Shown here piece by piece: positions 28 through 20,206 of a stretch of DNA of 23,695 nucleotides. The translations under genes and the position numbers were made by a program. This stretch comes from a virus. The notes under the pieces are model-generated. The model had not been told where the DNA came from, did no database searches, and saw only the letters and a program-made list of their open reading frames with translations. Where the stretch lies: IMG/VR virus record IMGVR_UViG_3300046680_000668, positions 1-23,695 of that record; one strand, 5' to 3'. How positions within the stretch are numbered: position 1 is the stretch's first letter; each line of letters begins with the position of its first letter.

Positions 28-71
28 GCAGGACACAGCACTTACGGTGCCGATTGAGACATCAACGCGCT

Positions 72-413
72 TCAGTTGGGCTTCGGCGCAGCTCCAGACT
101 CATCGGGCGTCCCGGCTGCCCGGGTAGCCAACAGTAGCGCGGCGTCAAGTGCTGCCTTCAGTGAGTGCGCCGCGGGGATGTTCATACGGAGATGGGCGAC
201 AATCACGCGGTCGTTTGCCACACCGTCCTGAGGCATGGGCACGTCGCGTGAAGCCTCGAGCGTGACGCGAATGATTCCAGTCAGGCACCCGATCGCGGAG
301 GCCTGCTCAAAATACAAGAACGGGGCGTGCGCACTTGCCAGCGCTGAAATCCCCCCTTCGAGGCTCGATATTGTCTCGACGACTTGCGGCTTCGTGCGGG
401 ACTCGTCGGTCAT
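72..413 (-). CDS. Hypothetical phage protein, copy 1 of a duplicated gene
   Basis: A 113-aa protein with a conserved-looking core from 'FLYFEQASAIG' to 'MNIPAAHSLKAALDAALLLA', i.e. beta strands followed by an amphipathic C-terminal helix. The layout is reminiscent of small DUF3467-type proteins but I cannot assign a family firmly. The start is well set: AGGAGG lies 5 nt before ATG on the minus strand. A second copy (23289-23633, 114 aa) differs by one inserted Val codon and scattered substitutions concentrated around 'GCLTGII' and 'MPQDG', so both copies look protein-coding and under constraint. It is transcribed away from the ejection protein genes. Function unknown. Confidence 0.75.
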   Translation of the reverse strand: MTDESRTKPQVVETISSLEGGISALASAHAPFLYFEQASAIGCLTGIIRVTLEASRDVPMPQDGVANDRVIVAHLRMNIPAAHSLKAALDAALLLATRAAGTPDESGAAPKPN

Positions 414-533
414 GGCATCCTCCTGTTTCGCGTCCTATTAGCGCAACGGCACGGACACGGAATATCTGCGATTTCTGCTGTGCGACACTGTGCGAAAGGC
501 GTCATAGTCCGCGGCGCCACAGGGGAGGCCGTC

Positions 534-716
534 ATGGCCCGCACACCACCGCCCGCTAGTTCCAGCACCACCACGCGGATCGCGCCTCGGCCGAACACTG
601 CAATCGGACATTCCGCGATGGCTCGCGACCACGCCAAGGCCGCCGCTGCACACGCCTCCAAGGCTGAGCAACTGAGCCGCGATGCGCGACGCACCATGCC
701 GAAGAGCGCGCGGTAG
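534..716 (+). CDS. Small basic phage protein
   Basis: A 60-aa ORF starting at an ATG with a strong GGGGAGG ribosome site 5 nt upstream; longer upstream in-frame starts overlap the promoter region of the divergent gene and are less likely. The N-terminus is Pro/Ser/Thr-rich, followed by an Ala/Lys/Arg-rich stretch (AMARDHAKAAAAHASKAEQL) likely to be helical. It sits directly upstream of the first ejection protein gene in the same direction, so it may be a minor virion or morphogenesis protein. No family recognised. Confidence 0.55.
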   Translation: MARTPPPASSSTTTRIAPRPNTAIGHSAMARDHAKAAAAHASKAEQLSRDARRTMPKSAR

Positions 717-781
717 CCACACACGGAGGCGGACGGGCCTGCGGTGGCCGAGGAACATACCCTGCATTTAGGAGAACTGAG

Positions 782-1504
782 GTGCCCTTCTCTGTCGCTG
801 CGATCGGAGCTGGTGTGAGTGCTGCTGCTGGCATTGCCGGCGGCATCATGCAGAAGAACGCCGTCGACAAAGGGGCGTCGCAGGCCAGGGATGCGCTCAA
901 TCAGGGCGTCACGACTGCCACCAACCAGCTATCGCCATGGGCCACCTCGGGGCAGCCGGCGAACGCCGATCAGGCCGATCTGCTGGGACTGAACGGGCAG
1001 CCTGCGGCTGACGCAGCGATGGCGAAGTTCCAGAGTTCGCCTGGATATACCTGGCAGCTCGGCGAGGGATTACGTGCGGTGGACGCCGGTGCTGCGGCAA
1101 ACGGGCTGCTGCGCTCGGGCGCGGCGCTGAAGGCGGAGCAGACGTTCGGCAGCGGGTTGGCGGCGACCGATTTCGGCAACTACTGGAACCGACTACAGCA
1201 GCTCAGCGGGAGCGGCCTGACGGCGGCCGGCGGCATTGCCAACGCGGCGACCGGAGGTGCTGCGAACATCGCGAACGTCGATACCGGCCAGGCGAGTATG
1301 GACGCTAGTATCTACGGCAATATGGCGAAGGGCGTCAGCACGGGCGCCAACCAACTGATGAGCAACACGGCGTTTCAGAATGCCATCGGGGGCGGTGGCG
1401 GTAGCGGTGCTCCGCAAATGACCGGCTTCGCGCCTAGCCTGCAGGTAGGCCAGGAATACACTGGCGGCTTTGTCGCGCAGCCGCCGCGAACACAGGGCTA
1501 CTGA
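782..1504 (+). CDS. Ejection / DNA transfer protein (P22 gp7 / p32-like)
   Basis: A 240-aa Ala/Gly-rich protein starting at GTG with AGGAG 7 nt upstream. The N-terminus is a Gly/Ala hydrophobic segment (residues about 5-22) as in podoviral ejection proteins. The central 'SPGYTWQLGEGLRAVDAGAA' followed by 'GLLRSGAALKAEQTFGSGLA' and 'FGNYWNRLQQLSGSG' matches the pattern I know from phage 'DNA transfer protein p32' annotations. Such proteins are packaged inside the capsid and leave with the DNA to form a conduit across the cell envelope. The next gene begins 5 nt after its stop, so the three ejection genes form one transcription unit. Family call from memory; the exact role in the conduit is inferred. 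Confidence 0.8.
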   Translation: MPFSVAAIGAGVSAAAGIAGGIMQKNAVDKGASQARDALNQGVTTATNQLSPWATSGQPANADQADLLGLNGQPAADAAMAKFQSSPGYTWQLGEGLRAVDAGAAANGLLRSGAALKAEQTFGSGLAATDFGNYWNRLQQLSGSGLTAAGGIANAATGGAANIANVDTGQASMDASIYGNMAKGVSTGANQLMSNTAFQNAIGGGGGSGAPQMTGFAPSLQVGQEYTGGFVAQPPRTQGY

Positions 1505-1508
1505 TCCA

Positions 1509-3749
1509 ATGTCAGGATTTTTCTCTGCCAACGTCACCTCCCCGTTCCCTGATCAGAACGCGCTATTCGATGCCGCCAAAGTGGCGAACGCGGGGCAGGC
1601 GTATCAGAGCAACCAGTTGCACCTGCAGGGCCAGCAGATGGATCTGACCGCGGCTGACCACGAGCAAGTGGCGCGGCTGTCGGCGGCGTTGCTGAACGAA
1701 CCGGACCTGGGCAAGCGGGCAGATCTGTATTCGCGCGGGGTGGGGATGCTGCAGTCGCAGAACCTTGCCAAGTACGCGCCACCGACGCTGCCCGACGAGA
1801 GCACGCTGCGGATGCTGGCGGCGCAGGGCGTGTCGAGCGAGAAGCAGTACGAGTATGGCGCTGGCCGCTCGGCGGCACAGGGCGCGCTCGGGGCGCTGGG
1901 CATCGGTAGCACCGGGACGGGGACTGGCACGACAGGGGCGGCGCCGGCTGGCAGCGTGGCGACAGCACCATCAGGAACGATCGAACCGGCCGCCTTCAAC
2001 AACGCCACCGCCGTCCGCGACGGGTTAATCAAGCGCGGCATGGACCCAGACACGGCAACGGGAGCGGCAGCCAATGCGTTGCACGAAAGCGTTGCCAATC
2101 CTCGCACCGGACGGGGCGACAAGGGCAATGCCGCCGGCATCTTCATGTGGACGGGGCCGCGCCTCCAGGCATACATCGACAAGACCGGCCATCCGCCTGA
2201 CGGCGCTCCTCTCGATGAGCAACTCGACTTCCTGATGTCGGAGTGGAACGGCTCTGAGGCTGATGCTGCCGCGAAGGTCGCGGAGGCGAAGGGGCCGGCC
2301 GCCAAAGCGGCTGCGTTCTCGCAGTATTTCCTGCGGCCGAAGGACACACAGGGGGAGATGCAGCGGCGCTCGGCCACCGCGCTGCAACTGCAACAACAGA
2401 TCGGCGGGGGCGCCACGACTGCCAGCACAGCGCCAACGGGAGGCGTTGCTGCGCGCACAGGCGGGACCGACACGGCCGGACCTGGTGCAGGCCCGGTAGC
2501 GCCACCAGGGCCCACAGCGACGCCTGGCGGCGATCTGATGGGGCCTCGGGCGCTGCCCAGCATAGGCCCTGGATCGCCCGTCGTGACGCCGCAGTCACTG
2601 GCCAACACGCCAGTCCCACAGAACGGGCTTGCCCCGCCACCATCCGCCCAGGCCCCAACTCCCGCACAGCCAGGCCAGCCAGCACAGCCACAGGCGGCGC
2701 CGACACCAGCGCCAGCGCCTGTAGCGCCCCAGGTGCCGCTGGAGCCGTTGCTGGACCTGAAGCCGTCTGGCCTGACGGCGCAGCAGGAGGCGGCGGCCAA
2801 GAACGACCTAAGCCGGCAGGGACTAACGCCGGCCGCAGTGACGGCGATCACCGCGCACTACCAGCAACTCGCGGCCAGCAACGTGACGGCGAACCAGTCT
2901 ATCCGGTCAGCGAACAGGCAGGCGCAGAACGACGCGCAGGCGCAGCAAGAAAAGGCGCTTGCCGATACGCGGGCGGCGGAAACGCAGCGGTTGGCGCAGA
3001 TTACCAGCCAGAGGGAGCAGGAGGCGGCTCAGCGCGATACTGAGCGGCTGGCATTGCAGAAGAAGCAGGCCGAACAGGGGTCCACTCAGAACAGCCGGGA
3101 CGACTACACCCTTCGCACCGAAGACCCTTCAAGCCAGCAATACGCGGACGCCTACGTCAGGCAAAAGTGGACGATCGCGCCGAATGGCAACGTCATCGAG
3201 AATGACATATCGCGGTATCCTGCGCCAAACCGCAACATACAACGGCCCACCTTCCTGCCGGCGCCGACACCGCAGGGGCTGGACGAGGTTCGCAAGGCGG
3301 ATACCGATGCCAAGGTCATTACCTCTGCCATCGATCATTACACCGATGTCTTCGAAGCCACCGGTGGCGGTGGCTGGGATGCTTATTTCGCCAACCCGAC
3401 CGACCCGAAGACACAGCAACTGCTTGGCGCATTTGATCGGATGAAAACCGTCCTGCGGAGTCCGCAGTATTACAATACCGGGGTACTGCAGCCTGCCGAG
3501 ATCAAGCTGATGGGCGAGGATCTGGTGTCTCCGCAGTCGCTGCGCGGGGTATTTGCCACCCCGCAAGCGCTCGCAACCAGGCTGGGAGAAATCAAGCTTG
3601 CCGTTTTGACTCGGCAGGATGCGGAACTGCGTTCTGTCGGCAAGGATGGGGTGATTGTTCGTGACAAGGCAGACTATGCCAAAGTCCCCGATGGGGGGAG
3701 GTATTATGACGAGGAAGGCCATCTGAAAATTAAGTCGGGGAAGCAATAA
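1509..3749 (+). CDS. Ejection protein with phage tail-lysozyme-like domain
   Basis: A 746-aa protein read from ATG 1509; a start at 1470 is possible but would overlap the upstream gene by 35 nt. Residues about 163-292 form a lysozyme-like domain: 'ATGAAANALHES' with a candidate catalytic Glu193, then 'AAGIFMWTGPRLQAYID', the signature of the phage tail-lysozyme family (Phage_lysozyme2 type), and a helical end at 'FSQYFLRPKD'. A Pro/Ala/Gln-rich linker (about 300-425) and a charged Gln/Ala/Glu coiled-coil-like stretch (about 480-535) lead to a globular C-terminal region of unknown fold. Likely role: injected with the genome, opening peptidoglycan and forming part of the ejection tube. The low-complexity linker makes long false ORFs on the other strand. 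Stop and next start overlap by 1 nt (TAATG). Confidence 0.85.
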   Translation: MSGFFSANVTSPFPDQNALFDAAKVANAGQAYQSNQLHLQGQQMDLTAADHEQVARLSAALLNEPDLGKRADLYSRGVGMLQSQNLAKYAPPTLPDESTLRMLAAQGVSSEKQYEYGAGRSAAQGALGALGIGSTGTGTGTTGAAPAGSVATAPSGTIEPAAFNNATAVRDGLIKRGMDPDTATGAAANALHESVANPRTGRGDKGNAAGIFMWTGPRLQAYIDKTGHPPDGAPLDEQLDFLMSEWNGSEADAAAKVAEAKGPAAKAAAFSQYFLRPKDTQGEMQRRSATALQLQQQIGGGATTASTAPTGGVAARTGGTDTAGPGAGPVAPPGPTATPGGDLMGPRALPSIGPGSPVVTPQSLANTPVPQNGLAPPPSAQAPTPAQPGQPAQPQAAPTPAPAPVAPQVPLEPLLDLKPSGLTAQQEAAAKNDLSRQGLTPAAVTAITAHYQQLAASNVTANQSIRSANRQAQNDAQAQQEKALADTRAAETQRLAQITSQREQEAAQRDTERLALQKKQAEQGSTQNSRDDYTLRTEDPSSQQYADAYVRQKWTIAPNGNVIENDISRYPAPNRNIQRPTFLPAPTPQGLDEVRKADTDAKVITSAIDHYTDVFEATGGGGWDAYFANPTDPKTQQLLGAFDRMKTVLRSPQYYNTGVLQPAEIKLMGEDLVSPQSLRGVFATPQALATRLGEIKLAVLTRQDAELRSVGKDGVIVRDKADYAKVPDGGRYYDEEGHLKIKSGKQ

Positions 3750-5455
3750 TGTCCGAGGATAAGCCATGGTTAGATGATCCGGTTGTTCGACCTCTCGTTC
3801 CGACCGATCTACCGAAGGCATCGGATGAGAAGCAGACAGGGACAACTGCGCGCGGCGGCATGGTCCGAAACACAGCCGCTGGGGTTCTGGAAGGTGACGC
3901 GGCGGCTCTTAACACCCTGTCCGATCCGTTCGGCAACATCATCGGCAAGCCGGTCGAGACTGCCGCCATGTTCCTGCACGACGCGCTGGCACCAGTGTTC
4001 GGCTATGATCGATTTTCCGAAGAGGATCGCAAGACTCTGTCCGGCGATCCCGTGCCGCAACCTGGCACGCGCATTATCTCCGCTCTACCGGGCGCCAATC
4101 CGGCTGACGTGCCGGCCAACACGACGGCTGAACAAATCGCGCGCAAGACTGCTGCTGCTACCACTGCCGCCGGCACGCTAGGTGCTGGCGTCGGTCCAGC
4201 GCTGGTTGGCGCGGGTGGCGCGGTGACGGGGGATGTGGCGAGCCGGTTCGTGCCAGACTGGGCAAAGGACGCGACCGAATTGGCTGGTAATGTGGTGGGC
4301 GGCAAGGTGGCAACTAATGTTGTCTCGCCTGGCCGTACGGTCACGACGCCAGCGCGGCAGCGGTTGGTTGAAGCGCTGGATACCGAGGGCGTCCCACTGT
4401 CGGCTGGCGAACGGACCGGCAGCAAGCCGCTGATAAAAACCGAACAGATGCTTGGCCAGACGCCAGGCTCTGCGGGTGGGATTGCGGAGGACGTGGCAAC
4501 ACAGCAGCGCGCGGTAAACAAGGCAGTAGCGAGCAAGGCTGGGCTTGATTCCGAAACGCTCGACCCGACAGTGCTCAACAAGCACATGGACGGCCTGGGT
4601 ACGCAGATCGACACACTTGTATCAAACAACAACATGCCGATCGACGCGCCCTTCGCGCAGACGCTGGGCCAGATCAAGGCATCGCTGCAAAATATGAAGA
4701 CGGATGCGGCGCAGGAAATCCAGGCGAGGCTTGGCCAGCTAAACCGCATGATAACCGTTGACGCCAACGGAAACCCTATCGTCCCGGGCCGCGCTTTCCA
4801 AAGTCTCATCAGTGACCTGAACGACGCTATACGGGGTGCGAGTGGAACGACCCAGACCACGCTGCTGCAGTTTAAGGACACCCTGCGCCAGCAGATGGAA
4901 TCGGGTATGTCGCCGGACGACCAGACGCAGTACCGGCAACTGAACCGGCACTATGCAAATGGCAAGGTTATTCAGGACGCGATGGGGGCGGCGGGAACGA
5001 AGCCGGCAGAGGGCGACATCTCGCTGCCTCAGTTACGCGTCGCCATCAACCATTCACTTGGCAAGGACGCCTACGCGAAAGGCTATGGCGATCTGAACGA
5101 CATGGCACGGGCAGGCCAGAGCGTGTTGCGCAAGCCCCCGGACAGCGGCTCACCACAAGGAATGCTGATCAATGCCCTGATGAAGGGAGTACCACTCGCC
5201 CTTGGCGGCGCTGGGGGGTATCTGGGAGGGGTGGAGGGCTTTGCGGCTGGATTGGCCACGCCATGGGCGATCGGCACAGCGATGCGTGCGCGTATTCCCG
5301 GCACGAATTACAGCCCAGGTCAGGCTTATCTGACGAACCAGCTTACGCGAAATGTCGATCCGAAAATTGTCGCGGCGATCACGCAGGCGGCGAACGAGGA
5401 AGACCGGCGCAATCAGATGATGCCTACCATCACTGTCAGGCCGCAGCCTCAGTGA
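3749..5455 (+). CDS. Third ejection / internal virion protein
   Basis: A 568-aa protein whose ATG shares one base with the preceding stop, so translation is coupled. The N-terminus is acidic and Pro-rich. Residues about 130-165 are an Ala/Gly/Thr-rich hydrophobic stretch, the middle is helical (190-430), and residues about 471-512 are Gly-rich and membrane-like (near 'PLALGGAGGYLGG'), followed by 'YLTNQLTRN'. Size, position as the last of three and hydrophobic tail fit podoviral ejection proteins such as P22 gp16/gp20 types. No enzymatic motif seen. Its stop region overlaps a convergent membrane protein gene by 7 nt, an arrangement repeated at 8598-8610. Confidence 0.75.
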   Translation: MSEDKPWLDDPVVRPLVPTDLPKASDEKQTGTTARGGMVRNTAAGVLEGDAAALNTLSDPFGNIIGKPVETAAMFLHDALAPVFGYDRFSEEDRKTLSGDPVPQPGTRIISALPGANPADVPANTTAEQIARKTAAATTAAGTLGAGVGPALVGAGGAVTGDVASRFVPDWAKDATELAGNVVGGKVATNVVSPGRTVTTPARQRLVEALDTEGVPLSAGERTGSKPLIKTEQMLGQTPGSAGGIAEDVATQQRAVNKAVASKAGLDSETLDPTVLNKHMDGLGTQIDTLVSNNNMPIDAPFAQTLGQIKASLQNMKTDAAQEIQARLGQLNRMITVDANGNPIVPGRAFQSLISDLNDAIRGASGTTQTTLLQFKDTLRQQMESGMSPDDQTQYRQLNRHYANGKVIQDAMGAAGTKPAEGDISLPQLRVAINHSLGKDAYAKGYGDLNDMARAGQSVLRKPPDSGSPQGMLINALMKGVPLALGGAGGYLGGVEGFAAGLATPWAIGTAMRARIPGTNYSPGQAYLTNQLTRNVDPKIVAAITQAANEEDRRNQMMPTITVRPQPQ

Positions 5456-5682
5456 GGCAGGAACGGCGCCAGGATCAACGTGACTGCAAGGATGGCGCCA
5501 AGGGCCAGGAGCAAATCCCGCAAGCCACCCTCCGCAAGGAAAGCACGATAGCTTGGGACGACAAATGGTGGCAGGTGAAACAGCTCCTTGAGGCATGACT
5601 TCAGGAACAGCAGGGAGCCTACCACCACCAGAGCGAGCAGGACGCCTGCACAGGCTTCGTAAAGTATCTTAGCCATCGTCAT
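5449..5682 (-). CDS. Small two-TM membrane protein
   Basis: 77 aa from ATG 5682 (a GTG at 5685 is also possible; GGAGGG lies upstream). Hydrophobic segments at about residues 9-24 ('GVLLALVVVGSLLFL') and 55-72 ('LLLALGAILAVTLILAP') predict two membrane spans with a short charged loop between. The start overlaps the stop of a 19-aa ORF (TGATG), which overlaps the stop of the 111-aa gene in the same way. The last 7 nt overlap the end of the ejection protein gene on the other strand. Could be a holin-like or envelope-modifying phage protein; no family recognised and no endolysin nearby. Confidence 0.6.
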   Translation of the reverse strand: MTMAKILYEACAGVLLALVVVGSLLFLKSCLKELFHLPPFVVPSYRAFLAEGGLRDLLLALGAILAVTLILAPFLPH

Positions 5683-5741
5683 CACGCCCCGCCCTCCAGC
5701 TTCCTGAGGCAGACCGCAACACCGATGACGAAATGCAGCAT
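5682..5741 (-). CDS. 19-aa coupled micro-ORF, hydrophobic
   Basis: MLHFVIGVAV then CLRKLEGGA. It starts at an ATG overlapping the stop of the 111-aa gene (TGATG) and ends at a TGA overlapping the ATG of the 77-aa gene (TGATG), so it fills the gap between them exactly. A GGGAG ribosome site precedes it. The N-terminal half is hydrophobic and the rest basic, so it could be a membrane micropeptide. It may instead serve only to carry ribosomes to the downstream start. Confidence 0.45.
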   Translation of the reverse strand: MLHFVIGVAVCLRKLEGGA

Positions 5742-6076
5742 CACGCCGCTCCCTGATCGTGGTGCGGCAGAAACCAGAGCACGGACCGGGTTTTGAGGCT
5801 TCTGGCGGCCTCCGCTTGGCTCTCTGTGCTGCTGTCGTCTTGCGCCCGAGGTGGCTGTAGCGAGGCGCTTTCTCTGGACATCAGGCGGATAAGGATGATT
5901 GCGAAGACGCAAACGCCGCCCCAGCCCACGACGGGGTTAGTCTCAATGTTCACCAGCAGCAGGACCGCCAGCCCGAGCACGCTGAGCACCGGTAAGATTA
6001 AAACCAACAATCGGAGCAGCGTCAGGATAAGTCCGGCGACTATCAAGAAGACGAAAAAGCCGATGATGATGCTCAC
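5741..6076 (-). CDS. Membrane protein with C-terminal LPHHDQG motif
   Basis: 111 aa from GTG 6076, chosen because AGGGA lies 7 nt upstream and the protein then begins directly with a membrane segment; a longer ORF reaches 6154 without a good ribosome site and would run into the operator of the divergent antitoxin gene. Hydrophobic spans at about residues 2-20, 22-46 and 54-70 predict three membrane passes. A polar Ser/Gln/Ala tail ends in 'LKTRSVLWFLPHHDQGAA'. The membrane protein at 8598-8837 ends in 'LKPQRTVFWWLPHDQGP', so the two share a C-terminal motif although their spans differ. First gene of a coupled minus-strand trio. Function unknown. Confidence 0.65.
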   Translation of the reverse strand: MSIIIGFFVFLIVAGLILTLLRLLVLILPVLSVLGLAVLLLVNIETNPVVGWGGVCVFAIILIRLMSRESASLQPPRAQDDSSTESQAEAARSLKTRSVLWFLPHHDQGAA

Positions 6077-6127
6077 GCCGTATCCCTTCCGCGCCGCGAC
6101 CGTTGACGGCGATCTGCGGGCGCCGTA

Positions 6128-6145
6128 TCTAGTGAACTCACTAGA
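6128..6145. promoter_or_regulatory. Inverted repeat, probable antitoxin operator
   Basis: Arms TCTAGTGA and TCACTAGA are exact inverted repeats around a 2-nt centre, 14 nt before the antitoxin start codon. Phd/YefM-type antitoxins commonly bind such palindromes to autoregulate their operon; binding here is inferred from position. Confidence 0.6.
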
Positions 6146-6159
6146 CAAAGGCAAGCGCT

Positions 6160-6441
6160 ATGTCGATCACGGTCAACGCAACGGACGCTAATCAGCGTTT
6201 CGCGGAGTTATTGGGCAAGGTGGCCGCCGGCGAGACCGTCATCATCACCAAGCGCGGGGAGCCGGTGGCACAGCTCACCAGCTATCGTCCCGAGGCTGCC
6301 TCGCCTGCGCGCAAGGCGGCATGGGACAAGCTCATCGCCCGGTTGGGCAGCGTCCCTATGCCAGCCGGAGGTTTTGTCTGGAACCGAGATGAGTTGTACG
6401 GGGACCGGGAGGTAAAGGCGTTGGGCAAGCGCGGACGCTAA
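6160..6441 (+). CDS. Type II antitoxin, Phd/YefM family
   Basis: 93 aa. The N-terminal half ('NATDANQRFAELLGKVAAG' then 'ETVIITKRGEPVAQLTSY') is the classic Phd/YefM DNA-binding fold: short strand, helix, 'G-x-x-V-I-I-T-x-R-G-x-P-V-A' strand turn. The C-terminal part (after about residue 45) is the toxin-contacting tail, with 'MPAGGFVWNRDELYGDRE'. The stop is 3 nt before the GTG of the PIN-domain toxin gene, giving the usual antitoxin-first operon. A palindrome just upstream is the likely autoregulatory operator. Expected roles: neutralise the toxin, repress the operon and stabilise the element in its host. Confidence 0.9.
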   Translation: MSITVNATDANQRFAELLGKVAAGETVIITKRGEPVAQLTSYRPEAASPARKAAWDKLIARLGSVPMPAGGFVWNRDELYGDREVKALGKRGR

Positions 6442-6444
6442 GAC

Positions 6445-6900
6445 GTGGTCAGGTTTACGCTCGACACCAACATCCTGATCTATGCCTTGGCCAAGCAGGA
6501 CGACGCTAAAGCCAGCACCGCCCGCAAGCTGGTGCAGCGAGCCCGCGCGCAGGATTGCGTCATCACCATGCAGGCGCTCGGCGAGCTGTTTCACGTGCTC
6601 ACCGGCAGATTACGCAGGCCCGTGGCTGAGGCCGTCGCCGCAGTCGAGGAATGGCGCGCTGCCGTGCCCGTGGTAACGGCCGATGAAGCCTGCATGGTCG
6701 ACGCCATGGATGCGGTCGTGGGGCATAGCTTTTCGTTCTGGGACGCCATGCTGTGGATGACCGCCAAGCGCGCGGGCTGTCAGCTGTTGCTCAGCGAAGA
6801 CGGCGACGACGGGCGCTCGCTGCGCGGGGTGACGCTGGTCAACCCATTCGCCTCACCCCGCGCGCCGCTGCTGTTGCAAGCGCTCGGAGGCAGGCGATAG
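6445..6900 (+). CDS. vapC: PIN-domain toxin (VapC-like ribonuclease)
   Basis: 151 aa from GTG. PIN-domain acidic residues are visible: Asp7 in 'FTLDTNILIYAL', Glu47 in 'MQALGELFHVLTG', Asp100 in 'FSFWDAMLW', and Glu118/Asp119 in 'LLLSEDGDDG'. This is the Mg-dependent RNase core of VapC toxins, which typically cut tRNA or rRNA. It is paired with a Phd/YefM-type antitoxin. The protein looks full length and the active-site residues are intact. It is followed after 84 nt by tnpB, so the pair may have travelled with that transposon or be independent phage cargo. Confidence 0.9.
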   Translation: MVRFTLDTNILIYALAKQDDAKASTARKLVQRARAQDCVITMQALGELFHVLTGRLRRPVAEAVAAVEEWRAAVPVVTADEACMVDAMDAVVGHSFSFWDAMLWMTAKRAGCQLLLSEDGDDGRSLRGVTLVNPFASPRAPLLLQALGGRR

Positions 6901-6942
6901 GGCTTGGAACTGCTGCCCGAAAGCTAATGAAATCTCATGATC

Positions 6943-6957
6943 CCTGATGTTCTCATT
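6943..6957 (+). repeat. Left inverted repeat flanking tnpB
   Basis: CCTGATGTTCTCATT matches the reverse complement of 8153-8169 (CCTGATGATTTCTCATT) apart from a 2-nt gap. The pair brackets the tnpB gene almost exactly, so it may mark element ends or form a stem. IS200/IS605 elements normally have subterminal hairpins rather than long inverted repeats, so the meaning is uncertain. Confidence 0.45.
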
Positions 6958-6984
6958 CTGGCGACGGACCGGTAGTAGGCCACG

Positions 6985-8136
6985 ATGCTGCTCGCCCAAC
7001 GAATTGCGCTCTACCCGACGCCCGCGCAGGCCGATTACCTGGACCGTGCCTGCGGCTCGCGGCGGCATTGCTACAATCAACTGCTGGCACACTTCTGCCA
7101 GCCGGGGGTGAAATGGTCCAAGGCAGCAGCGTTCATTCACTACACCAAGGTCATCAAGCCGCAATTCCCCTGGTATGGCGAGGTGTCCTCGCGCGCCACC
7201 CGCAACGCCATCGATGACCTGGACAACGCCTTCAGGCATTTCTTCCGGCGCTGCAAGCTGGGCCAGAAGCCCGGATTTCCCCGGTTTCACAAGAAAGGCG
7301 TGAATGACGGCTTTGCCATGCGTGAGAAGCCGAAGTTCAATATCGATGGCAGGACGCTGCGCATCGAGAAGTTGCCCACCCGCATCAAGCTGCGCCAGTT
7401 GCCGCGCTTCACCGGCACCCACTGTCAGGTCACCGTCGCGAAGCAGGCCGGCAAGTTCTACGCGTCCATCCTGACCGACACGCAGGACTATGACCGCAAG
7501 GACGATGACCGTGAGCCTGCGGTCGGGGTGGACTTTGGTATCACCTCGCTGGCCACGCTCTCGACCGGCGAAGTGGTGCCCGCCAACCAAAAGCTGAAGG
7601 CCAATCTAAGGAGATTGAAAAGGAAGCAACGCAGACTGTCCCGCAAACAGCGCGGGTCGAACCGGCGGGCGAAAGCCAAGCTCGTCGTAGCAAAGCTGCA
7701 CAAGCGGATTGCCGATCAGCGCACGGCGGTCCTGCACGAAGTGTCGGACAAACTGACCGAGCGCTTCGATACCATCGTCATCGAGGACTTGGCCGTGAAG
7801 AACATGGTCAGGAATCGCTCGCTGTCACGGGCGATTTCGGATGCCGGGTTCGGCACGCTGCGACGGATGATCGAATACAAAGCCGCATTGCGCGGCTGCG
7901 AGGTGGTCATCGCGCCAAGGTTCTACCCTTCGTCCAAGACCTGCTCCGACTGTGGTGTCGTCAAGGACGCCCTGTCGCTGGGGGAGCGCGTCTACCGGTG
8001 TGAGGACTGCGGCCACGAGCAGGACCGCGATCTGAATGCCGCGCTGAACCTGCTACGACTGCACACGTTTCGGGCGGTCGCTAAACGGACACAAGAGCCG
8101 CGTCAGACGGTGGGCTTGCCCGCCGCAGCGGCGTAG
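6985..8136 (+). CDS. tnpB: TnpB-family RNA-guided nuclease (OrfB, IS200/IS605 or IS1341 type)
   Basis: 383 aa, full length for TnpB. The N-terminus has the 'RIALYPTPAQADYL' start and 'CGSRRHCYNQLL' helix typical of OrfB. RuvC-like catalytic residues: Asp183 in 'VGVDFGITSLATLS', Glu267 in 'TIVIEDLAVKNM', and Asp in 'DRDLNAALNLL' (347/349). The zinc finger between them is intact (Cys320, Cys323, Cys339, Cys342). TnpB uses an RNA from the transposon's right end to cut DNA next to a short TAM motif and aids transposon retention. No tnpA is present, so this is a solitary TnpB. The last residues are shorter than in many relatives. The guide RNA would be expected over the 3' end of the gene and the following about 100 nt. 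Confidence 0.93.
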   Translation: MLLAQRIALYPTPAQADYLDRACGSRRHCYNQLLAHFCQPGVKWSKAAAFIHYTKVIKPQFPWYGEVSSRATRNAIDDLDNAFRHFFRRCKLGQKPGFPRFHKKGVNDGFAMREKPKFNIDGRTLRIEKLPTRIKLRQLPRFTGTHCQVTVAKQAGKFYASILTDTQDYDRKDDDREPAVGVDFGITSLATLSTGEVVPANQKLKANLRRLKRKQRRLSRKQRGSNRRAKAKLVVAKLHKRIADQRTAVLHEVSDKLTERFDTIVIEDLAVKNMVRNRSLSRAISDAGFGTLRRMIEYKAALRGCEVVIAPRFYPSSKTCSDCGVVKDALSLGERVYRCEDCGHEQDRDLNAALNLLRLHTFRAVAKRTQEPRQTVGLPAAAA

Positions 8137-8180
8137 ACGGTGTCAACAGACCAATGAGAAATCATCAGGTTTTTAGGAAC
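8050..8180 (+). ncRNA. Candidate right-end RNA (omega/reRNA) of TnpB
   Basis: Known TnpB loci transcribe their guide RNA from the 3' end of tnpB through the right transposon end, with the guide taken from flanking DNA. By position that is this stretch. It includes an inverted-repeat arm (8153-8169). I cannot place the exact 3' boundary or prove a scaffold fold, so the coordinates are approximate. Confidence 0.3.
8153..8169 (+). repeat. Right inverted repeat flanking tnpB
   Basis: AATGAGAAATCATCAGG, partner of 6943-6957 (15 matching positions plus a 2-nt gap). It begins 17 nt after the tnpB stop and ends just before the reading frame resembling a broken ejection protein starts, so it may lie near the right element boundary. 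Confidence 0.45.
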
Positions 8181-8183
8181 GGA

Positions 8184-8610
8184 ATGAACAGCCTGACGGC
8201 GACGAGAGGAACTGCTTGATGCTGCTGGGGGCACGTCTGGCGTGCGCGCTGTTCGTGGGATCGGAAACCTGCTTGGACCGCGTGTGCTGTATACGCTCAC
8301 GGATGCCGCCAACGGCATTGCCGATTGGATGACAACGCGGAACGTGGCGAAGTTCGCTGACCGCATCTTCGGCAATCCGGATGCTGGCCTCAGTGCAGAG
8401 AGCGGTATGAAGTTCCTGCGGGAAGCCGCACGGCTGTCGCCGGGCAGCCGAGAACTCATTACGCGAACGGCTGAGTTTGTCGGCCAACAGATCGGCGGCA
8501 CTGATGTTGTGAGCGGTCGCCAACCAACTCCTGGCTCAGACCGACCCGGACCGGGCTTCAATCTGCCGCCGGCGCCGCGCAACCAGTTCGCGCCAGTCTA
8601 TGGGCCCTGA
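8184..8610 (+). pseudogene. Broken C-terminal fragment, ejection-protein-like
   Basis: The long open frame (from about 8197; GTG 8242 is the first usual start) reads 'DAAGGTSG...RAVRGIGNLLGPRVLYTLTDAANG' and ends Pro-rich. Just upstream, in another frame, 'MNSLTATRGTA' (from 8184) runs to a stop at 8217. Joining the two by a single-base shift near 8214-8217 gives a continuous Gly-rich, membrane-like tail of the kind that ends ejection proteins such as 3749-5455. It has no recognisable start region, directly follows the tnpB element, and ends in a 13-nt convergent overlap with a minus-strand membrane protein gene, as 5455 does. I read it as the remnant of a gene cut by the tnpB insertion or brought in by recombination. 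It could still be expressed from GTG 8242. Confidence 0.5.
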
Positions 8611-8837
8611 TCGTGCGGCAGCCACCAGAACACAGTGCGCTGTGGCTTGAGCGCGGCACGGGCGGCGTGATCATCGTAGGGACGGTATCGTTGAGGAATG
8701 ACCTCTGATACCGCCTCACCTATGCCTTTAACCAAAACGATCAGCACGACAACTGGCAACACCAGTCCCAGCGAGACACTCGCCAGCGCCAGCCATATCT
8801 GGAACAGCACGACGAACAGCGCGATTATCAGGCCCAT
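8598..8837 (-). CDS. Small membrane protein with C-terminal LPHDQG motif
   Basis: 79 aa from ATG 8837; AAGGA lies about 9 nt upstream, inside the end of the HNH-like gene. Two hydrophobic spans (about residues 2-22 and 24-40) precede a charged tail ending 'ALKPQRTVFWWLPHDQGP'. The ending matches that of the membrane protein at 5741-6076 ('LKTRSVLWFLPHHDQGAA'), a shared motif of unknown purpose. Last gene of the minus-strand operon that starts at 9823; its stop overlaps the end of the broken plus-strand fragment. Possible envelope or superinfection-exclusion protein; not recognised. Confidence 0.65.
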   Translation of the reverse strand: MGLIIALFVVLFQIWLALASVSLGLVLPVVVLIVLVKGIGEAVSEVIPQRYRPYDDHAARAALKPQRTVFWWLPHDQGP

Positions 8838-8840
8838 CAA

Positions 8841-9438
8841 TTACATTCCTTGACGCATTTGCAGTCGCGTTCGTCTGTTTTTTGCTTGTTGCACCCAGGT
8901 TGCCCATCGGCAATTGCCCGGCTCGTAACCGCCGTCATTGTCGATGCGATCGAGCGTCAGGCCGGGCGGACACTCGCCCATGTCGGTGAGGAAGTTTGCG
9001 AAGCCGTCTGGGCCTTGCCAACGCTGACAAACGATGACGCCTCTGTCGAAGTAATAAGGGTGTGCCGTATGACCGGGCTTACAGCGTGCAAGCATGTATC
9101 TCCATAGTCTGCAGGTTCGTGTTTCATGCCCCATGCTGGTGGATCTGACTGCGTAAGTTCCGCACTGTTCGTTCTTTGCGCACCTACATTGCGTACCGTG
9201 CCGTTTCATGCTTCCCATGCCGGGTCATCAGCTCCCGTTGTAGACAACCGCAAGAACGGGTGTTTCCTTTGCGCAGCCTGATCGCTGATATGTCTTTTAC
9301 CGTGCCACACCGACAGCGGCATTTGACCGCAGGGCTTGTAACACCGCTTGGTGCCTTTTTTGCTGGCGCCGCCTCTAACACGGTCCAGCGTCCGAACACT
9401 GTGCCTGCTTCGGGCAGCGGCAACCGTGGGTGCCTCAT
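8841..9438 (-). pseudogene. HNH/AP2-like phage DNA-binding gene interrupted by an 82-nt insertion
   Basis: The start at 9438 overlaps the upstream HNH stop (ATGA). The first part reads 'GTVFGRWTVLEAAP...CRCRCGTVKDI' to 'RSCGCLQRELMTRHGKHET' and hits TAG at 9184. The second part, in another frame, reads 'HETRTCRLWRYMLARC...YYFDRGVIVCQRWQ' and 'LTLDRIDNDGGYEPGNCRWA'. Together these are the halves of a common phage family (often annotated HNH endonuclease or AP2-like). Removing 82 nt (9121-9202) between two copies of CATGAAAC joins 'RHGKHE' to 'TRTCRLWRYM' in frame and leaves exactly 171 codons plus stop. As it stands the product is truncated, unless ribosomes bypass the insert. Confidence 0.75.
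9121..9202 (-). other. 82-nt insertion flanked by CATGAAAC repeats
   Basis: On the minus strand CATGAAAC occurs at 9210-9203 and again at 9128-9121, exactly 82 nt apart, each preceded by a CATGGG-like sequence. The extra 82 nt shift the frame by one and add an in-frame TAG. The insert is not similar to anything else I notice in the window. It could be a small insertion with target duplication, an imperfect tandem duplication, or a bypassed segment. Confidence 0.6.
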
Positions 9439-9731
9439 CGGGCACATTCCCATTTGTCTTTCGCCGCTGCATCGGCCTTCGTCTGCCATTGCATGTTGGC
9501 AACATCGTCAGGGCCGCCATGACAAAGCGGCTTGACGTGGTCGATCACGTAGCCCGGCCGGCCGTGCGGATAGCCGGTCTCGCGCATAAACTGCTCGCGC
9601 ACTTCCGGGCTGCGGGCGATGCGGCCGTGGCTGTCGCGAGCGCACGAGGCGCAGTAGCTGGAGCTGCGCGCATGAACGGCGGTCGTGGCCAGCACTGCGG
9701 TGAGCGCGAGGGCGATGGGCGAGAGGCGCAT
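9435..9731 (-). CDS. Secreted HNH endonuclease
   Basis: 98 aa from ATG 9731, overlapping the stop of the 30-aa gene (TGATG). Residues 1-22 are a signal peptide ('LSPIALALTAVLATTAVHA', cleavage probably after AHA-like VHA). The mature part has 'SYCASCARDSHGRIARS' with a Cys-x2-Cys, then 'GYPHGRPGYVIDHVKPLCHGG' and 'ANMQWQTKADAAAKDKWE', which is the HNH arrangement (DH ... N ... KxxKD) of a well-known small family of exported HNH nucleases in proteobacteria and their phages. It likely nicks or cuts DNA in the periplasm or outside. A longer in-frame ORF to 9890 lacks support. Its stop overlaps the next start (ATGA). Confidence 0.82.
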   Translation of the reverse strand: MRLSPIALALTAVLATTAVHARSSSYCASCARDSHGRIARSPEVREQFMRETGYPHGRPGYVIDHVKPLCHGGPDDVANMQWQTKADAAAKDKWECAR

Positions 9732-9823
9732 CAGCAGTCGTGGTGGTGGTGGCCGCCGCACAGCAGCAGCCAGATCATGACGCCGGGCCAGCCAGCGATC
9801 AGGAATGCGAGCAGGAAGTGCAT
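9731..9823 (-). CDS. 30-aa His-rich membrane peptide
   Basis: MHFLLAFLIAGWPGVMIWLL then LCGGHHHHDC. The ATG at 9823 has a perfect AGGAGG 7 nt upstream, one of the strongest ribosome sites in the window. One membrane span covers nearly the whole peptide, ending in Cys-Gly-Gly-His4-Asp-Cys, a possible metal-binding tip. Its stop overlaps the ATG of the secreted HNH nuclease (TGATG), so the two are made together. Function unknown; links to metal supply for, or export of, the nuclease are speculation. Confidence 0.65.
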   Translation of the reverse strand: MHFLLAFLIAGWPGVMIWLLLCGGHHHHDC

Positions 9824-9830
9824 GTTCGAT

Positions 9831-9843
9831 CCTCCTGAGGAGG
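9831..9843. promoter_or_regulatory. Ribosome site inside an inverted repeat
   Basis: CCTCCTGAGGAGG: the Shine-Dalgarno AGGAGG of the 30-aa gene faces its own complement across one base. In mRNA the partial hairpin could hide the ribosome site and so tune translation of the downstream minus-strand operon. Only the arms are visible; regulation is inferred. Confidence 0.35.
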
Positions 9844-9911
9844 CTGAGCAAAGGAAGCGCAGTGCGCAGCGCAAAAAAGGGGTTGGACATCTACATGTCA
9901 AGTGATAAAAC

Positions 9912-9931
9912 ATACTGGATTTAGCCAGTAT
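9912..9931. promoter_or_regulatory. Inverted repeat in divergent intergenic region
   Basis: Exact 7-bp arms ATACTGG and CCAGTAT around a 6-nt A/T-rich centre, between the minus-strand operon (start 9823) and the plus-strand RHH gene (start 9959). Position and size fit an operator for the adjacent ribbon-helix-helix protein. Confidence 0.45.
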
Positions 9932-9958
9932 TCCACCGACGCGGAGGAGCCGGGTAAC

Positions 9959-10168
9959 GTGGGTCACATGGGACGCCGGCCACAGGGGTTCACCGCGAAG
10001 ACGGTGATGCTACCGCCAGAGCTATGGGACCGCCTGGAGCGGTTCATGGTCGAGGAGCATCTGTCCAGCGTGGCAGAGGCGCTGCGCGTGTTGCTTTGGC
10101 GCGCACTTCCCGATGAGTCACCCAAGTCTGTGCCGGCACCGAGGAAGGGCAGGCGCAGTGGCGAGTAG
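9959..10168 (+). CDS. Ribbon-helix-helix regulator
   Basis: 69 aa from GTG 9959, chosen because GGAGGAG lies about 9 nt upstream; ATG 9968 is the alternative. 'FTAKTVMLPPELWDRLERF' then 'SSVAEALRVLLWRAL' has the strand-helix-helix layout of small RHH DNA-binding proteins. A basic tail follows. An inverted repeat 28 nt upstream is a candidate operator. The next gene carries a related C-terminal region with a zinc-like domain added in front, so the two look like relatives with different heads. The coding regions overlap by 11 nt. Confidence 0.65.
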   Translation: MGHMGRRPQGFTAKTVMLPPELWDRLERFMVEEHLSSVAEALRVLLWRALPDESPKSVPAPRKGRRSGE

Positions 10169-10550
10169 ATCAGTGCGAAACGCGGTAGCCAAGGCTATCC
10201 GCACTAGCGAGCTAGTTCGCCAACCGTGCGAGAAATGCGGCGCCAAGGCCGATGCGCATCATGATGACTATGACCGGCCGCTCGACGTGATCTGGCTTTG
10301 CCGCAAGCACCATCAACTCCGACACAAAGAACTAGGATGGGGAGTTAGCCACGGGCCATCAAAGTTTGTGTTCAAGGTCCCTATGGTTTTTCCCGAGGAG
10401 CAATGGCGGGCGATCGAGGCGTACCAGCGCAATCGGCGGATCAGCACGCTGACGGAAAGCATCCGCGCCCTGATCTGGCGGGGGCTGGAAGCCGAGGGCG
10501 CTGCTCCACCACCTGCACCAGCACCACGCCAGAAGCGCGGCTCCCAGTGA
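10158..10550 (+). CDS. HNH/zinc-like domain fused to an RHH-like domain
   Basis: 130 aa from GTG 10158 (AGG 4 nt upstream, overlapping the previous stop). Residues 24-56 hold 'CEKCGAKADAHHDDYDRPLD' and 'VIWLCRKHHQLRHKE': Cys24, Cys27, His34-His35, Cys48, His51-His52, His56, an HNH-like zinc fold of the type seen in small phage proteins. From about residue 74, 'VPMVFPEEQWRAIEAYQ' and 'STLTESIRALIWRGLEAEG' parallels the RHH core of the preceding protein. The C-terminus is Pro/Ala/Lys-rich. I infer a DNA-binding protein, perhaps a site-specific nickase or a zinc-stabilised regulator; catalysis is unproven. The recombinase operon at 14812-15731 has the same head-swap theme. Confidence 0.65.
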   Translation: MASRSVRNAVAKAIRTSELVRQPCEKCGAKADAHHDDYDRPLDVIWLCRKHHQLRHKELGWGVSHGPSKFVFKVPMVFPEEQWRAIEAYQRNRRISTLTESIRALIWRGLEAEGAAPPPAPAPRQKRGSQ

Positions 10551-10581
10551 GCAAGCAAGGTCACGCACTGGCCACGCCGAC

Positions 10582-10695
10582 GTGCTGAGGCAGCGAATTC
10601 CCGCTTGGCGCGGCTCGACGCGGCATGAAATCGTCACGCTGGCCGCACTGAACGCGGCCCGAGTCGCAAGGAAGATCCGGAACCCAGAACCCTAG
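10582..10695 (+). CDS. Possible 37-aa ORF
   Basis: A GTG-initiated frame ('VLRQRIPAWRGSTRHEIVTL', then an Ala/Arg-rich end). It overlaps a 13-aa frame (10547-10588) that begins at a GTG overlapping the stop at 10550. The only support is this chain of overlaps in an otherwise empty stretch; no family is recognised and the ribosome sites are weak. Confidence 0.25.
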   Translation: MLRQRIPAWRGSTRHEIVTLAALNAARVARKIRNPEP

Positions 10696-10697
10696 AA

Positions 10698-10844
10698 ATG
10701 CTGAAGCCCACCGGTGAGGGTGGGCCACGAACATCCGGCCAAGCCGGGGAAGCTGATGATCTCGCAAATCCAGCATCCCCGATTTCAGGCCCGTTTCGCA
10801 AGAGCCTATTTCTTGCCGTGGGGATGCTCGTGCCCGCGCCCTGA
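10698..10844 (+). CDS. Possible 48-aa ORF
   Basis: Starts at ATG two bases after the previous short frame and reads 'MLKPTGEGGPRTSGQAGEAD' to a hydrophobic end ('KSLFLAVGMLVPAP'). A 7-bp stem-loop (10706-10725) lies over its first codons and could affect translation. It precedes the winged-helix gene by 29 nt. No family recognised; may be non-coding. Confidence 0.3.
   Translation: MLKPTGEGGPRTSGQAGEADDLANPASPISGPFRKSLFLAVGMLVPAP
10706..10725 (+). promoter_or_regulatory. Stem-loop GCCCACC/GGTGGGC
   Basis: Exact 7-bp arms with a 6-nt loop, GC-rich. It resembles the stem of a Rho-independent terminator but no T run follows, so it may be an attenuator or part of a structured leader for the winged-helix gene at 10874. 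Confidence 0.35.
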
Positions 10845-10873
10845 CTGATGGGCTTCGGCAGGAGACCGCCGAA

Positions 10874-11353
10874 GTGACACCCAACCAATGCGCCTACCGC
10901 GCCGTCCAGGCCCGCCGCTCGCTGCCGCACGGCCAGCGCCCCACCGATCTGCATATCCGCGTCATGTTCGTCCTGGCGCGCTGGCAGCACCCCAGCCCCT
11001 GCCATGCCAAGCTGGCTCGAGCAGCGCACTGCCACCGCAACAGCGTGCTGAACGCGCTGCACCGGCTGCGCGATCTCGGGCTGCTGACCTGGGAGCGGCA
11101 GTTCACCCAGCTGCACGGCTGGCGGATCCAGACCGCGAACCGTTACTTGTTCGTGAGCAATCTTCCTTTGCCGCCAGCACGCTCGAGGCCGGTAGGGAAG
11201 GAAAGAAAACTGGCATCTTTACTTGGCCCGCAAAGCTTGTGCAGCGGACCTCGACCGGCAGCACTGGCAGCCATGCTGGCGGGTGCGGCGCGGCTGCCTG
11301 ACCTGCTCGCGGCGCGACGGGCTGCCTGGGAGGGCGGGCTGGTGCGGGGCTGA
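10874..11353 (+). CDS. Winged-helix/HTH DNA-binding protein
   Basis: 159 aa from GTG 10874 with AGGAG 9 nt upstream. Residues about 25-85 ('DLHIRVMFVLARWQHPSPCH', 'AKLARAAHCHRNSVLNALHRL', 'RDLGLLTWERQF') follow the winged-helix pattern seen in phage replication-initiation and regulatory proteins: a helix, 'K-L-A-R-A-A-x-C-H-R-N-S-V' recognition region, then 'L-R-D-L-G-L-L' wing. The rest is low-complexity and basic with an Ala-rich helical C-terminus. Its stop is in the same frame as, and directly precedes, the ParB-like remnant, suggesting a deletion junction. Exact role (replication helper or repressor) unknown. Confidence 0.6.
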   Translation: MTPNQCAYRAVQARRSLPHGQRPTDLHIRVMFVLARWQHPSPCHAKLARAAHCHRNSVLNALHRLRDLGLLTWERQFTQLHGWRIQTANRYLFVSNLPLPPARSRPVGKERKLASLLGPQSLCSGPRPAALAAMLAGAARLPDLLAARRAAWEGGLVRG

Positions 11354-11443
11354 ATTGTGGTGTCGAAGAACCTGCACCGGCGGCATCTGAACATGAGCCA
11401 GCGGGCGATGATTGCGTGCCAGATTGCTACCGCAGAAGGCGGT

Positions 11444-11511
11444 GGCGACCGCATGTCTGACCACCGGATACAAATATCCGGTGGTCCTGATGTGACTGCT
11501 GAACAGGCTGC
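11444..11511 (+). repeat. ParB-remnant repeat, copy A, with 12-bp hairpin
   Basis: Begins GGCGACCGCA and ends TGACTGCTGAACAGGCTGC. Inside lies an exact inverted repeat: 11459-11470 (GACCACCGGATA) pairs with 11475-11486 around the loop CAAA. Confidence 0.7.
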
Positions 11512-11604
11512 CAAGATGCTGGGCGTGAGTCGCGCCCTGGTTATTCGGGCGAAGACTATCTGGTGTCGTGGCACTGCAGAGGCTGCCTCCAGCGCGTTCG
11601 CGGC

Positions 11605-11673
11605 GGCGACCGCAAGAGCGATCAAGCGATACAAATATCACTTGATCCAGCCGTTGACTGCTGAACAGGCTGC
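11605..11673 (+). repeat. ParB-remnant repeat, copy B, with 12-bp hairpin
   Basis: Same ends as copy A, one nucleotide longer. Inside, 11620-11631 (GATCAAGCGATA) pairs with 11636-11647 around the same loop CAAA, with a single C/A mismatch. The stem sequence differs from copy A on both sides yet still pairs. Confidence 0.7.
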
Positions 11674-11824
11674 ATCGCCAGTTCAGCCACGGAACTCAGC
11701 GATCACTGTCAGTAGCCTGTCAGGATACCCCCGTGCGCATCGCAGTGGCAGCCTCAGCGGCCTCCCGGCTCATCGCGGCCTGGAAACCGCGATTGATGCG
11801 GCAACCCTGACGCAGGAGGCCGAG

Positions 11825-12304
11825 ATGCAGGACACACGAGACACCACCGCCAACCCTTCCCGCCGGCGCCTGATCGCGGGCAGCAGTGCTGCGCTGTTTG
11901 CCGGCGCTGCGCTCGCCACTTCGGTCCACGCTGAACCGAAATTCCCGGCGGCGAGCGGCGACGACGCGCAGATCCTGCGTTTGCTCGCAGAGTGGCTGCC
12001 ACTCCAGCGGCGGTATCACGCCCTGAGCGACCACACCGCGGAGATGGACCCCGTACCCGCCGAGATCGCTCGTGAACTGAGCCACGTCGTGACCGCGCAG
12101 CACGACCTGGCGGAGGAGATGGCCGAGCTGCGGGCGACCACGCTCGAGGGGCTGCGGGCGAAGGCGGCAGTGCTCCTGTCCTATAGCTCCTATCTGGCGG
12201 ACGGCGAGAGGCTGCTCTGGGAGAACCACGACGAGCTGATGGGCTGGAGCATTGCGCGCGACCTGTTGGGGGATGCGACCGCCAAGGCGGATTACCGGCC
12301 CTGA
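11825..12304 (+). CDS. Tat-exported hypothetical protein
   Basis: 159 aa from ATG 11825, chosen for its AGGAGG 5 nt upstream although the frame is open further back. Residues about 12-36 are a twin-arginine signal ('SRRRLIAGSSAALFAGAAL' then 'ATSVHA'), so the mature protein should be periplasmic and exported folded. The mature part is all-helical: 'LLAEWLPLQRRYHALSDHTA', 'ELSHVVTAQHDLAEEMAELR', 'ATTLEGLRAKAAVLLSY'. The last motif and the general layout resemble a helical protein common in Acetobacteraceae prophages. Function unknown. Confidence 0.72.
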   Translation: MQDTRDTTANPSRRRLIAGSSAALFAGAALATSVHAEPKFPAASGDDAQILRLLAEWLPLQRRYHALSDHTAEMDPVPAEIARELSHVVTAQHDLAEEMAELRATTLEGLRAKAAVLLSYSSYLADGERLLWENHDELMGWSIARDLLGDATAKADYRP

Positions 12305-12333
12305 GCCGGCGGCGGCGTCCCGCATCGATCCTG

Positions 12334-12558
12334 GTGACGGATCCGTCGGAGATCGTGTTCCTGCGGTGGGTCAGAACCCTGCCGGAGTCGTCGCTTCCGG
12401 ACCTGAGGAGGGCGATGCGGGCTCTCGCGGAGCAGCGGCCGGCGGAGAAAGCGCATGCTACGGTGCTGAAGTTCTTGCTTGCTGCCGGCTATCCGGACGC
12501 CAGCGATAAAGCCGCCGAATTGGTGCGGGCCGGTTGGCAGGTGGTGGGCGAGCGGTAA
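12334..12558 (+). CDS. Hypothetical small helical protein
   Basis: 74 aa from GTG 12334, 29 nt after the Tat-signal gene and in the same direction. The composition is helical and charged ('SSLPDLRRAMRALAEQRPAE', 'KAAELVRAGWQVVGER') with no recognisable domain. The ribosome site is weak. About 160 nt follow before the next confident gene; no convincing coding frame with a start is seen there. Confidence 0.5.
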   Translation: MTDPSEIVFLRWVRTLPESSLPDLRRAMRALAEQRPAEKAHATVLKFLLAAGYPDASDKAAELVRAGWQVVGER

Positions 12559-12716
12559 GGGACGACGGTCGGTGTCAGAGCCACCAGGCGTCCGCCCAAC
12601 GGAGGTCGATACGCTGCGGCGGAAGCGGAAGGGCATGGTCAGCCCCAGCAGATTGAATGGTGGACGCGGCTCGAAACCACGACATAGCCTACCCGGACAC
12701 AGCGAGGGAGAAGGCG

Positions 12717-12938
12717 ATGGCGGACAAGCCGACGGTAACTGTCACGGAGCGCGGGGAGATCATCCCTGGCACAGCTCGCACGAGTTATCGCCGTGGGTTC
12801 GCCGATCTGCTCGACTTCACCACACCGCCCGCCAGGGTCACTATCCTGCCTCCAGGTGCGCCGACCACGATTGGAGTTGCGCGAACCGGTCAGGCGATGC
12901 GTGAGGCAATGGCGGCCTTTGAGAAGGCCCGGCCGTAA
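12717..12938 (+). CDS. Hypothetical small protein
   Basis: 73 aa from ATG 12717; the upstream GAGGGAGAAGG supports this start over one at 12657. Sequence 'MADKPTVTVTERGEIIPGTA' then 'YRRGFADLLDFTTPPARVTI' shows a short beta-type N-terminus and an 'AMREAMAAFEKARP' helical end. No family recognised. It immediately precedes the frameshifted DUF2335 gene; its stop codon overlaps the region where that gene's start would be. Confidence 0.55.
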   Translation: MADKPTVTVTERGEIIPGTARTSYRRGFADLLDFTTPPARVTILPPGAPTTIGVARTGQAMREAMAAFEKARP

Positions 12939-13006
12939 GCGGCTCAGACCGCCCACCGACCGAGGACGGCAGGCAGCCACCGCCGGGCGCCGATCCACGG
13001 CAGCGA

Positions 13007-13388
13007 TTGCTGCCCATCTCTTTCGTCCAGCACCACGTCGGGCCGCTGCCACCGCCCGGCGGTGCTCGCGGATTACGAGGCGGCGCACCAGGGCGCGGCT
13101 CAGTGGATCATCGAACAGGCGGAGAAGAACGCCGCGCACGCCCGGGAGATGGAGCTCCGCGCGATCAGGCTGCAACGGCTGGATATGCTGCTGCACAGGT
13201 TACTGCCGTTCGGGCTGGTGGTCGCTTTTCTGATTGCCAGCCTCGCGCTCGCCTACTTCAACCCGGCAGCCGGAGCGGCGGGGGTGATCGCCACGTTGGG
13301 CACCGTGCTGATCGCCTATCTCACCGGCCGGGCGCCAAACATCCGGTCGGACCCGGCCCCGCCTACTCCCTCCGCACCACCGCCCTGA
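13007..13388 (+). pseudogene. DUF2335-like membrane protein with a +1 frameshift
   Basis: Frame one (from TTG 13007, and coding-like back to about 12935 as 'SGSDRPPTEDGRQPPPGADP') ends in 'FVQHHVGPLPPP'. Frame two (from 13062) continues 'AVLADYEAAHQGAAQWIIEQ', 'AEKNAAHAREMELRAIR' and two membrane spans ('LPFGLVVAFLIASLALAYF', 'GVIATLGTVLIAYLTG'). The DUF2335 family has exactly 'HH-x-GPLPPP' followed by 'L-x-x-Y' and 'G-A-A-x-x-I', so the gene is whole except for one extra C in CCC at 13055-13057. No normal start is found for the N-terminal part. Could be real decay, a sequencing error, or expression of a shortened form from GTG 13062. Confidence 0.65.
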
Positions 13389-13953: not shown

Positions 13954-14075
13954 GGATCGTCGCCCGTCGCAGTGACGGGGCACCCAGTTACCGGCCGCCT
14001 CGTGACCGCCGCAAGAGCCACCGCAGCAAATCTGCACAGCGGGGCACACGGTGGAACAGGCGGGGACGAATTAGC

Positions 14076-14103
14076 TTGTATATAAACCATACGAGCGTAT
14101 GAT
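14076..14103 (+). promoter_or_regulatory. Sigma70-like promoter for the recombinase operon
   Basis: TTGTAT, 16 nt, then TATGAT, in an A/T-rich island 30 nt before the recombinase ATG. A palindrome (14088-14101, arms CATACG and CGTATG) overlaps the -10 box, as expected of an operator for repression or autoregulation. Confidence 0.6.
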
Positions 14104-14134
14104 GAGTGCATATTCACCGACAGGCACCCCATCA

Positions 14135-15731: not shown

Positions 15732-15747
15732 CGAGGGCCCCGGCACA

Positions 15748-16131: not shown

Positions 16132-16230
16132 TCGGCCACTTTAAGTCCTTTGATAGCCCTGAGTCCGTTCCTCTATTTGGTTGCCCCGGCACGCCAAGGA
16201 ACGGCGTGGATACCGGAGGATCATCCAGCT

Positions 16231-20054: not shown

Positions 20055-20063
20055 ACCCTCGCA

Positions 20064-20189: not shown

Positions 20190-20206
20190 CTCGGGCGTGC
20201 CGCAGC

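Follow-up and report, generated by a model that had tools for sequence, protein, structure and literature searches.

The window, by which we mean the whole stretch of 23,695 bases analysed here (the complete IMG/VR virus record IMGVR_UViG_3300046680_000668), is a soil-phage sequence that probably represents a phage-derived circle of 23.2 kb without the usual head genes. As assembled, it would trace a lariat through the graph of a genome that is circular or circularly permuted, 23,220 bp long, and derived from a phage; the junction would sit in a small gene that has the terminase on one side and the ejection genes on the other. On balance, we lean towards the view that the right end rejoins at position 476 and that the circle really exists as a phage derivative devoid of head genes, with a junction that varies. 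The exact repeat, the two gene versions, two contigs that cross the junction, and the lack of recognised head genes in the window are direct observations, from which we go further in proposing that closure would occur in one molecule, that the circle would have originated by loss of a head block, and that it would depend on a helper.

The first-pass annotation had proposed this topology from an exact identity of 99 nt between the window's end and an internal site, and the repeat is indeed as described: positions 23597 to 23695 equal 377 to 475, the 99-mer occurs only twice in the window (at 377 and 23597), extension to 100 bases leaves no repeat, and the preceding bases differ (T at 376, A at 23596). 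Chance is negligible as a source of such a match (expectation around 1e-48). The 99-mer, which contains the rejoining point, forms the last part of a direct repeat of 445 nt with copies at 34 to 475 and 23251 to 23695 that are 89.4% identical and differ in length by one 3-nt gap; a mere assembler overlap is insufficient to account for a match of this extent. The copies show no difference over the first block (34 to 101), 44 differences within 102 to 368, and none again up to the window end, and the 99-mer starts so abruptly because it abuts a 3-bp in-frame codon indel at 376/377. This is not a direct terminal repeat in the usual sense of at least 20 bp shared by the start and end of a contig, as the window's end recurs at 377 and not at 1, and none of the related loci examined for such repeats carries one.

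Each copy of the repeat holds one version of a small gene on the minus strand, an open reading frame of 113 aa for version A (72 to 413) and of 114 aa for version B (23289 to 23633), with 93% identity between the two proteins. With loci of the window's own lineage left out, 34 of the 44 differences were found at third codon positions, and dN/dS between the versions is 0.098, so both are real, maintained genes and not assembly or sequencing noise. The small gene matches no Pfam and no PHROG family, and it has homologues of 65%, 55%, and 47% identity in L085, L086, and L193, respectively. It comes after a helix-turn-helix protein in L085, and neighbouring open reading frames in the other two loci resemble helix-turn-helix regulators as judged by eye; plausibly, it is an accessory gene of temperate phages that may serve here as a stretch of homology for the exchange of upstream modules. 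Just beyond its 3' end, a strong hairpin is present in all three flanks observed (1 to 71, 23200 to 23288, and that of contig L083), and these hairpins, whose stem sequences differ, are probably terminators.

Two other contigs lead across the junction. L083 (IMGVR_UViG_3300046678_001109; 7,427 bp) runs, in window orientation, from another large terminase into version B, which is exact over the window's last 418 nt, and from there directly into 476 to 5682 with 7 differences. L003 (IMGVR_UViG_3300046517_001564; 14,718 bp) covers 13617 to 23250 including the window's own terminase and then enters version A, continuing through 34 to 5117, so that the same sequence of version A lies between the terminase and the first ejection gene, inj240. 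The earlier proposal that the right end rejoins at 476 thus draws its support from these contigs, through version B in L083 and from the terminase side in L003, rather than from the window's own reads. Since two separate contigs lead the right end to 476, a circle of 23,220 bp (23,695 minus 475) is the simplest closure, in agreement with the length first suggested. L003 (13.6 to 23.2 kb plus 0.5 to 5.1 kb) shows the junction, not a closed circle, and the window is the sole coverage of 5683 to 13616.

The suggestion that 1 to 376 form an alternative arm survives in part. Bases 1 to 33, the only ones with no counterpart in L003 or L083, are a different flank (f3) with a palindrome and a fold resembling a terminator hairpin, and the first 32 of them gave no exact match in a scan of viral contigs. 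Positions 34 to 376, by contrast, are version A of the same gene, and an arm unrelated to the right end is ruled out by their presence at the same place in L003, between terminase and ejection genes. The flank on the other side (f1; 22777 to 23250), between the window's large terminase gene and the small gene, is identical in L003. Four combinations of flank and version are therefore seen, namely f1 with A in L003, f1 with B at the window's right end, f2 with B behind the other terminase in L083, and f3 with A at the window's left end, and together they are the mark either of recombination at the small gene or of chimeras formed there. A search of viral contigs with the first 34 bases of the gene found L083 and L003, neither of which leads elsewhere.

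Downstream of the small gene, the three contigs are closely alike. From 476 to 817, L003 and L083 show no differences from the window; they carry the same six variants against it in 818 to 1514, and they differ from each other at a single position (3202) within 476 to 5117, yet they have different terminases and gene versions. Five of the six differences between the window and these two contigs within 476 to 5117 cluster in 12 nt at the start of inj240 (818 to 829), a pattern such as a small gene conversion would leave. Similarity at the DNA level to the closest inj240 relatives starts at 726 or 732, where 726 to 781 (plus strand) match the C-terminal end of a small gene that precedes inj240 in these relatives. 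A 2-nt gap keeps this decayed 3' remnant from being read through to the usual stop; the gene in question looks cupin-like by eye, and an intact relative gave no Pfam match. All three contigs have the boundary at 726 in common, and since L003 and L083 share it, the stretch from the small gene to inj240 is an old inherited arrangement and not an assembly join.

The window encodes a primase/helicase, a terminase pair, and three ejection-cluster proteins, all on the plus strand. The ejection side comprises inj240 (782 to 1504; DNA ejection protein, phrog_598), inj759 (1470 to 3749), which has a Phage_lysozyme2 domain and matches a tape measure family of the PHROGs over the same lysozyme-like part, and inj568 (3749 to 5455; DNA ejection protein, phrog_26400). 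A DNA primase/helicase (17928 to 20054) is followed by the small (21051 to 21470; phrog_1482) and large (TerL1; 21460 to 22776; phrog_2) terminase subunits. Not one of the 30 window proteins matched a portal, coat, or neck family in a PHROGs scan. Compared to headed P22-like phages, the terminase pair and ejection proteins are thus present while portal, coat, and neck are absent, and the virion gene set of the window as assembled is incomplete, as in a satellite.

For each of the two large terminases, 79 related loci were compared, of which 55 and 58, respectively, have a portal match (phrog_156). In these 113 relatives, the portal always lies downstream of the terminase, separated from it by 27 bp to 8.7 kb; the remaining loci (24 and 21), being short or divergent, gave no match at the cut-off, and the duplicate loci L084, L087, and L088 as well as the window pieces L001 and L002 were left out of this count. 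On the other side, a neck gene (gp10-type, phrog_578) lies upstream of inj240 in all 23 other loci with a relative of inj240, 18 of which also have a tail-fibre match, which makes its absence from the window genome odd; these 23 include the contig of L089 and several near-identical pairs, and L087 and L169, duplicates of L083 and L003, were left out. The distance from terminase to inj240 is 21.9 kb in IMGVR_UViG_3300045141_000187 and 20.0 kb in IMGVR_UViG_3300048891_000046, two relatives of 40 to 42 kb in total length, compared to approximately 1.2 kb in L003, 1.1 kb in L083, and 1.2 kb in the closed window. Relaxed selection after loss of the head genes finds no echo in the dN/dS of inj240 and TerL (0.16 to 0.29 in window pairs, 0.07 to 0.32 among relatives), a ratio that shows no sign of decay, although, as an average that includes the headed ancestry, it gives no date for the loss. 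Across the loci L004 to L168, the interval between terminase and portal varies in length as described, and two large-terminase types precede the same portal type; the interval is likely a hot spot where accessory genes settle and terminases are exchanged.

The strongest rival, which we nonetheless consider rather unlikely, is an intact phage of ca. 43 kb that carries version B between terminase and portal and version A between tail fibre and ejection genes, so that the repeat short-circuits assembly into a false head-less circle. Such a phage would explain why the window begins and ends at the two gene copies; the missing 20.0 or 21.9 kb plus 22 kb add up to ca. 43 kb, the size of complete-looking relatives, and the variable gaps between terminase and portal in the 113 relatives show that extra genes do settle there. 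The inherited boundary at 726 by itself is no proof of head-block loss, as version A could also occupy this place in an intact phage. Against this explanation, L083 leads from version B straight to 476, and L003 switches from f1 to version A within the identical block of just 68 nt (34 to 101). L003 begins with exactly 127 nt in common with the window, followed by a SNP, and its assembly thus probably used k=127; as the 68-nt block is shorter than this k, graph collapse at the switch seems unlikely. Terminal overlaps of 127 nt among the fetched loci are those of L003 with the window and of the same-sample pair L151 and L164, next to 123 nt for the same-sample pair L077 and L080 and many other values. 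Among the fetched terminase relatives, the small gene was detected (tblastn, E 1e-5) only in L003 and L083, and no contig was found that leads from the gene into a portal, although the collection may lack contigs of the intact form.

Less probable still is the coexistence of both forms, an intact helper phage with two copies of the gene and circles that arise from it by deletion between the copies, with the f3-A arm as the intact junction. This would account for f3-A beside f1-B in one contig and for hybrid junctions in both identical blocks, but the f3 bases, as noted, have no match, no intact counterpart was found, and TerL1 has no close relative except that of L003 (the next best being 69%). 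We give hardly any credence to the idea that the 99-nt overlap is just the last k-mer left where a circular contig was cut at random, with 1 to 376 as a meaningless strain tip: 99 is among the k-mer-like repeat lengths reported for public contigs (PMC8116208), but the cut falls in the two-version gene, where L003 and L083 diverge as well, and is therefore not random, and the missing head genes stay unexplained. A k of 99 for the window's assembly is nevertheless plausible, and it fits the account given in the CheckV paper (PMC8116208), where repeats in public contigs pile up at lengths such as 55, 77, and 99 bp that are likely assembler k-mers.

Elsewhere in the window, serine recombinase genes are present, and at 14099 to 15731 one of them is followed by two open reading frames, one of which has an HNH-type match, that repeat its C-terminal part at approximately 66% DNA identity; this region represents either a diversified cassette or fragments in tandem. 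At 6160 to 8136, genes for a Phd/YefM antitoxin, a PIN-domain toxin, and an IS605-type OrfB (TnpB-like) lie in a row, in a region covered by the window alone, and HNH/homing-type endonuclease genes are found mid-circle at 8841 to 9218 and 10113 to 10550.

Coming back to a real circle, the phage derivative would be a recombining one without head genes, either a deletion mutant or satellite-like. In the population, the small gene would have at least two versions and lie behind no fewer than three flanks, and homologous recombination in the identical blocks at both gene ends would generate the different combinations of flank and version. The circle would replicate by its own primase/helicase, and its own terminase would cut and package the circle or its concatemer. 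Because the genome is devoid of portal, coat, and neck genes, it would need a helper head, with a headed relative supplying portal and coat and each 42-kb headful taking up approximately 1.8 genome lengths. As a tentative proposal, held with less confidence than the circle itself, there may be a natural lineage of 23-kb head-gene-less circles derived from P22-like soil phages that use their own motor and ejection proteins together with helper heads and swap terminase modules at the two-version gene. No named phage among 50,697 records gave a megablast match, and scans of GTDB genomes detected relatives neither of the small gene nor of inj568, so that they gave no context of a host or prophage. 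A full-text literature search found no paper on satellites with a terminase but without a capsid, which we regard as weak evidence. A real circle would mean that a phage derivative has kept packaging and ejection while losing the head and has exchanged its large terminase, and its helper dependence and terminase choice would become testable. If the circle is false, the repeated small gene makes contigs resemble complete small circular phages and is a trap for completeness estimates.

Among the closest known systems are headed soil phages of 40 to 43 kb such as IMGVR_UViG_3300045141_000187, 3300046516_000571, and 3300048891_000046, which we take to be P22-like from their gene order. They share relatives of the window's terminase and of inj240 and inj759, but their terminase and inj240 are separated by a portal and neck genes, which are absent from the window, L003, and L083. 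Deletion or defective-interfering phage derivatives lose structural genes and keep those for replication and packaging. The window resembles them in just this respect, yet here three metagenome contigs carry two different large terminases. Like the contigs with direct terminal repeats treated in the CheckV paper (PMC8116208), the window has a repeat of k-mer length at its end that points to circular or permuted DNA; unlike them, it has the matching copy inside the contig (377), beyond a diverged arm, where the standard comparison of contig start and end misses it, and its 99-mer belongs to a longer repeat of a two-version gene. PICMI satellites (PMC10803314) likewise have a reduced gene content without head genes and package concatemers in unmodified helper heads, but the window differs from them in having both terminase subunits and ejection proteins, with no integrase-site or fis-linked context seen. 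By analogy, a helper head larger than the window's genome could be filled by a concatemer.
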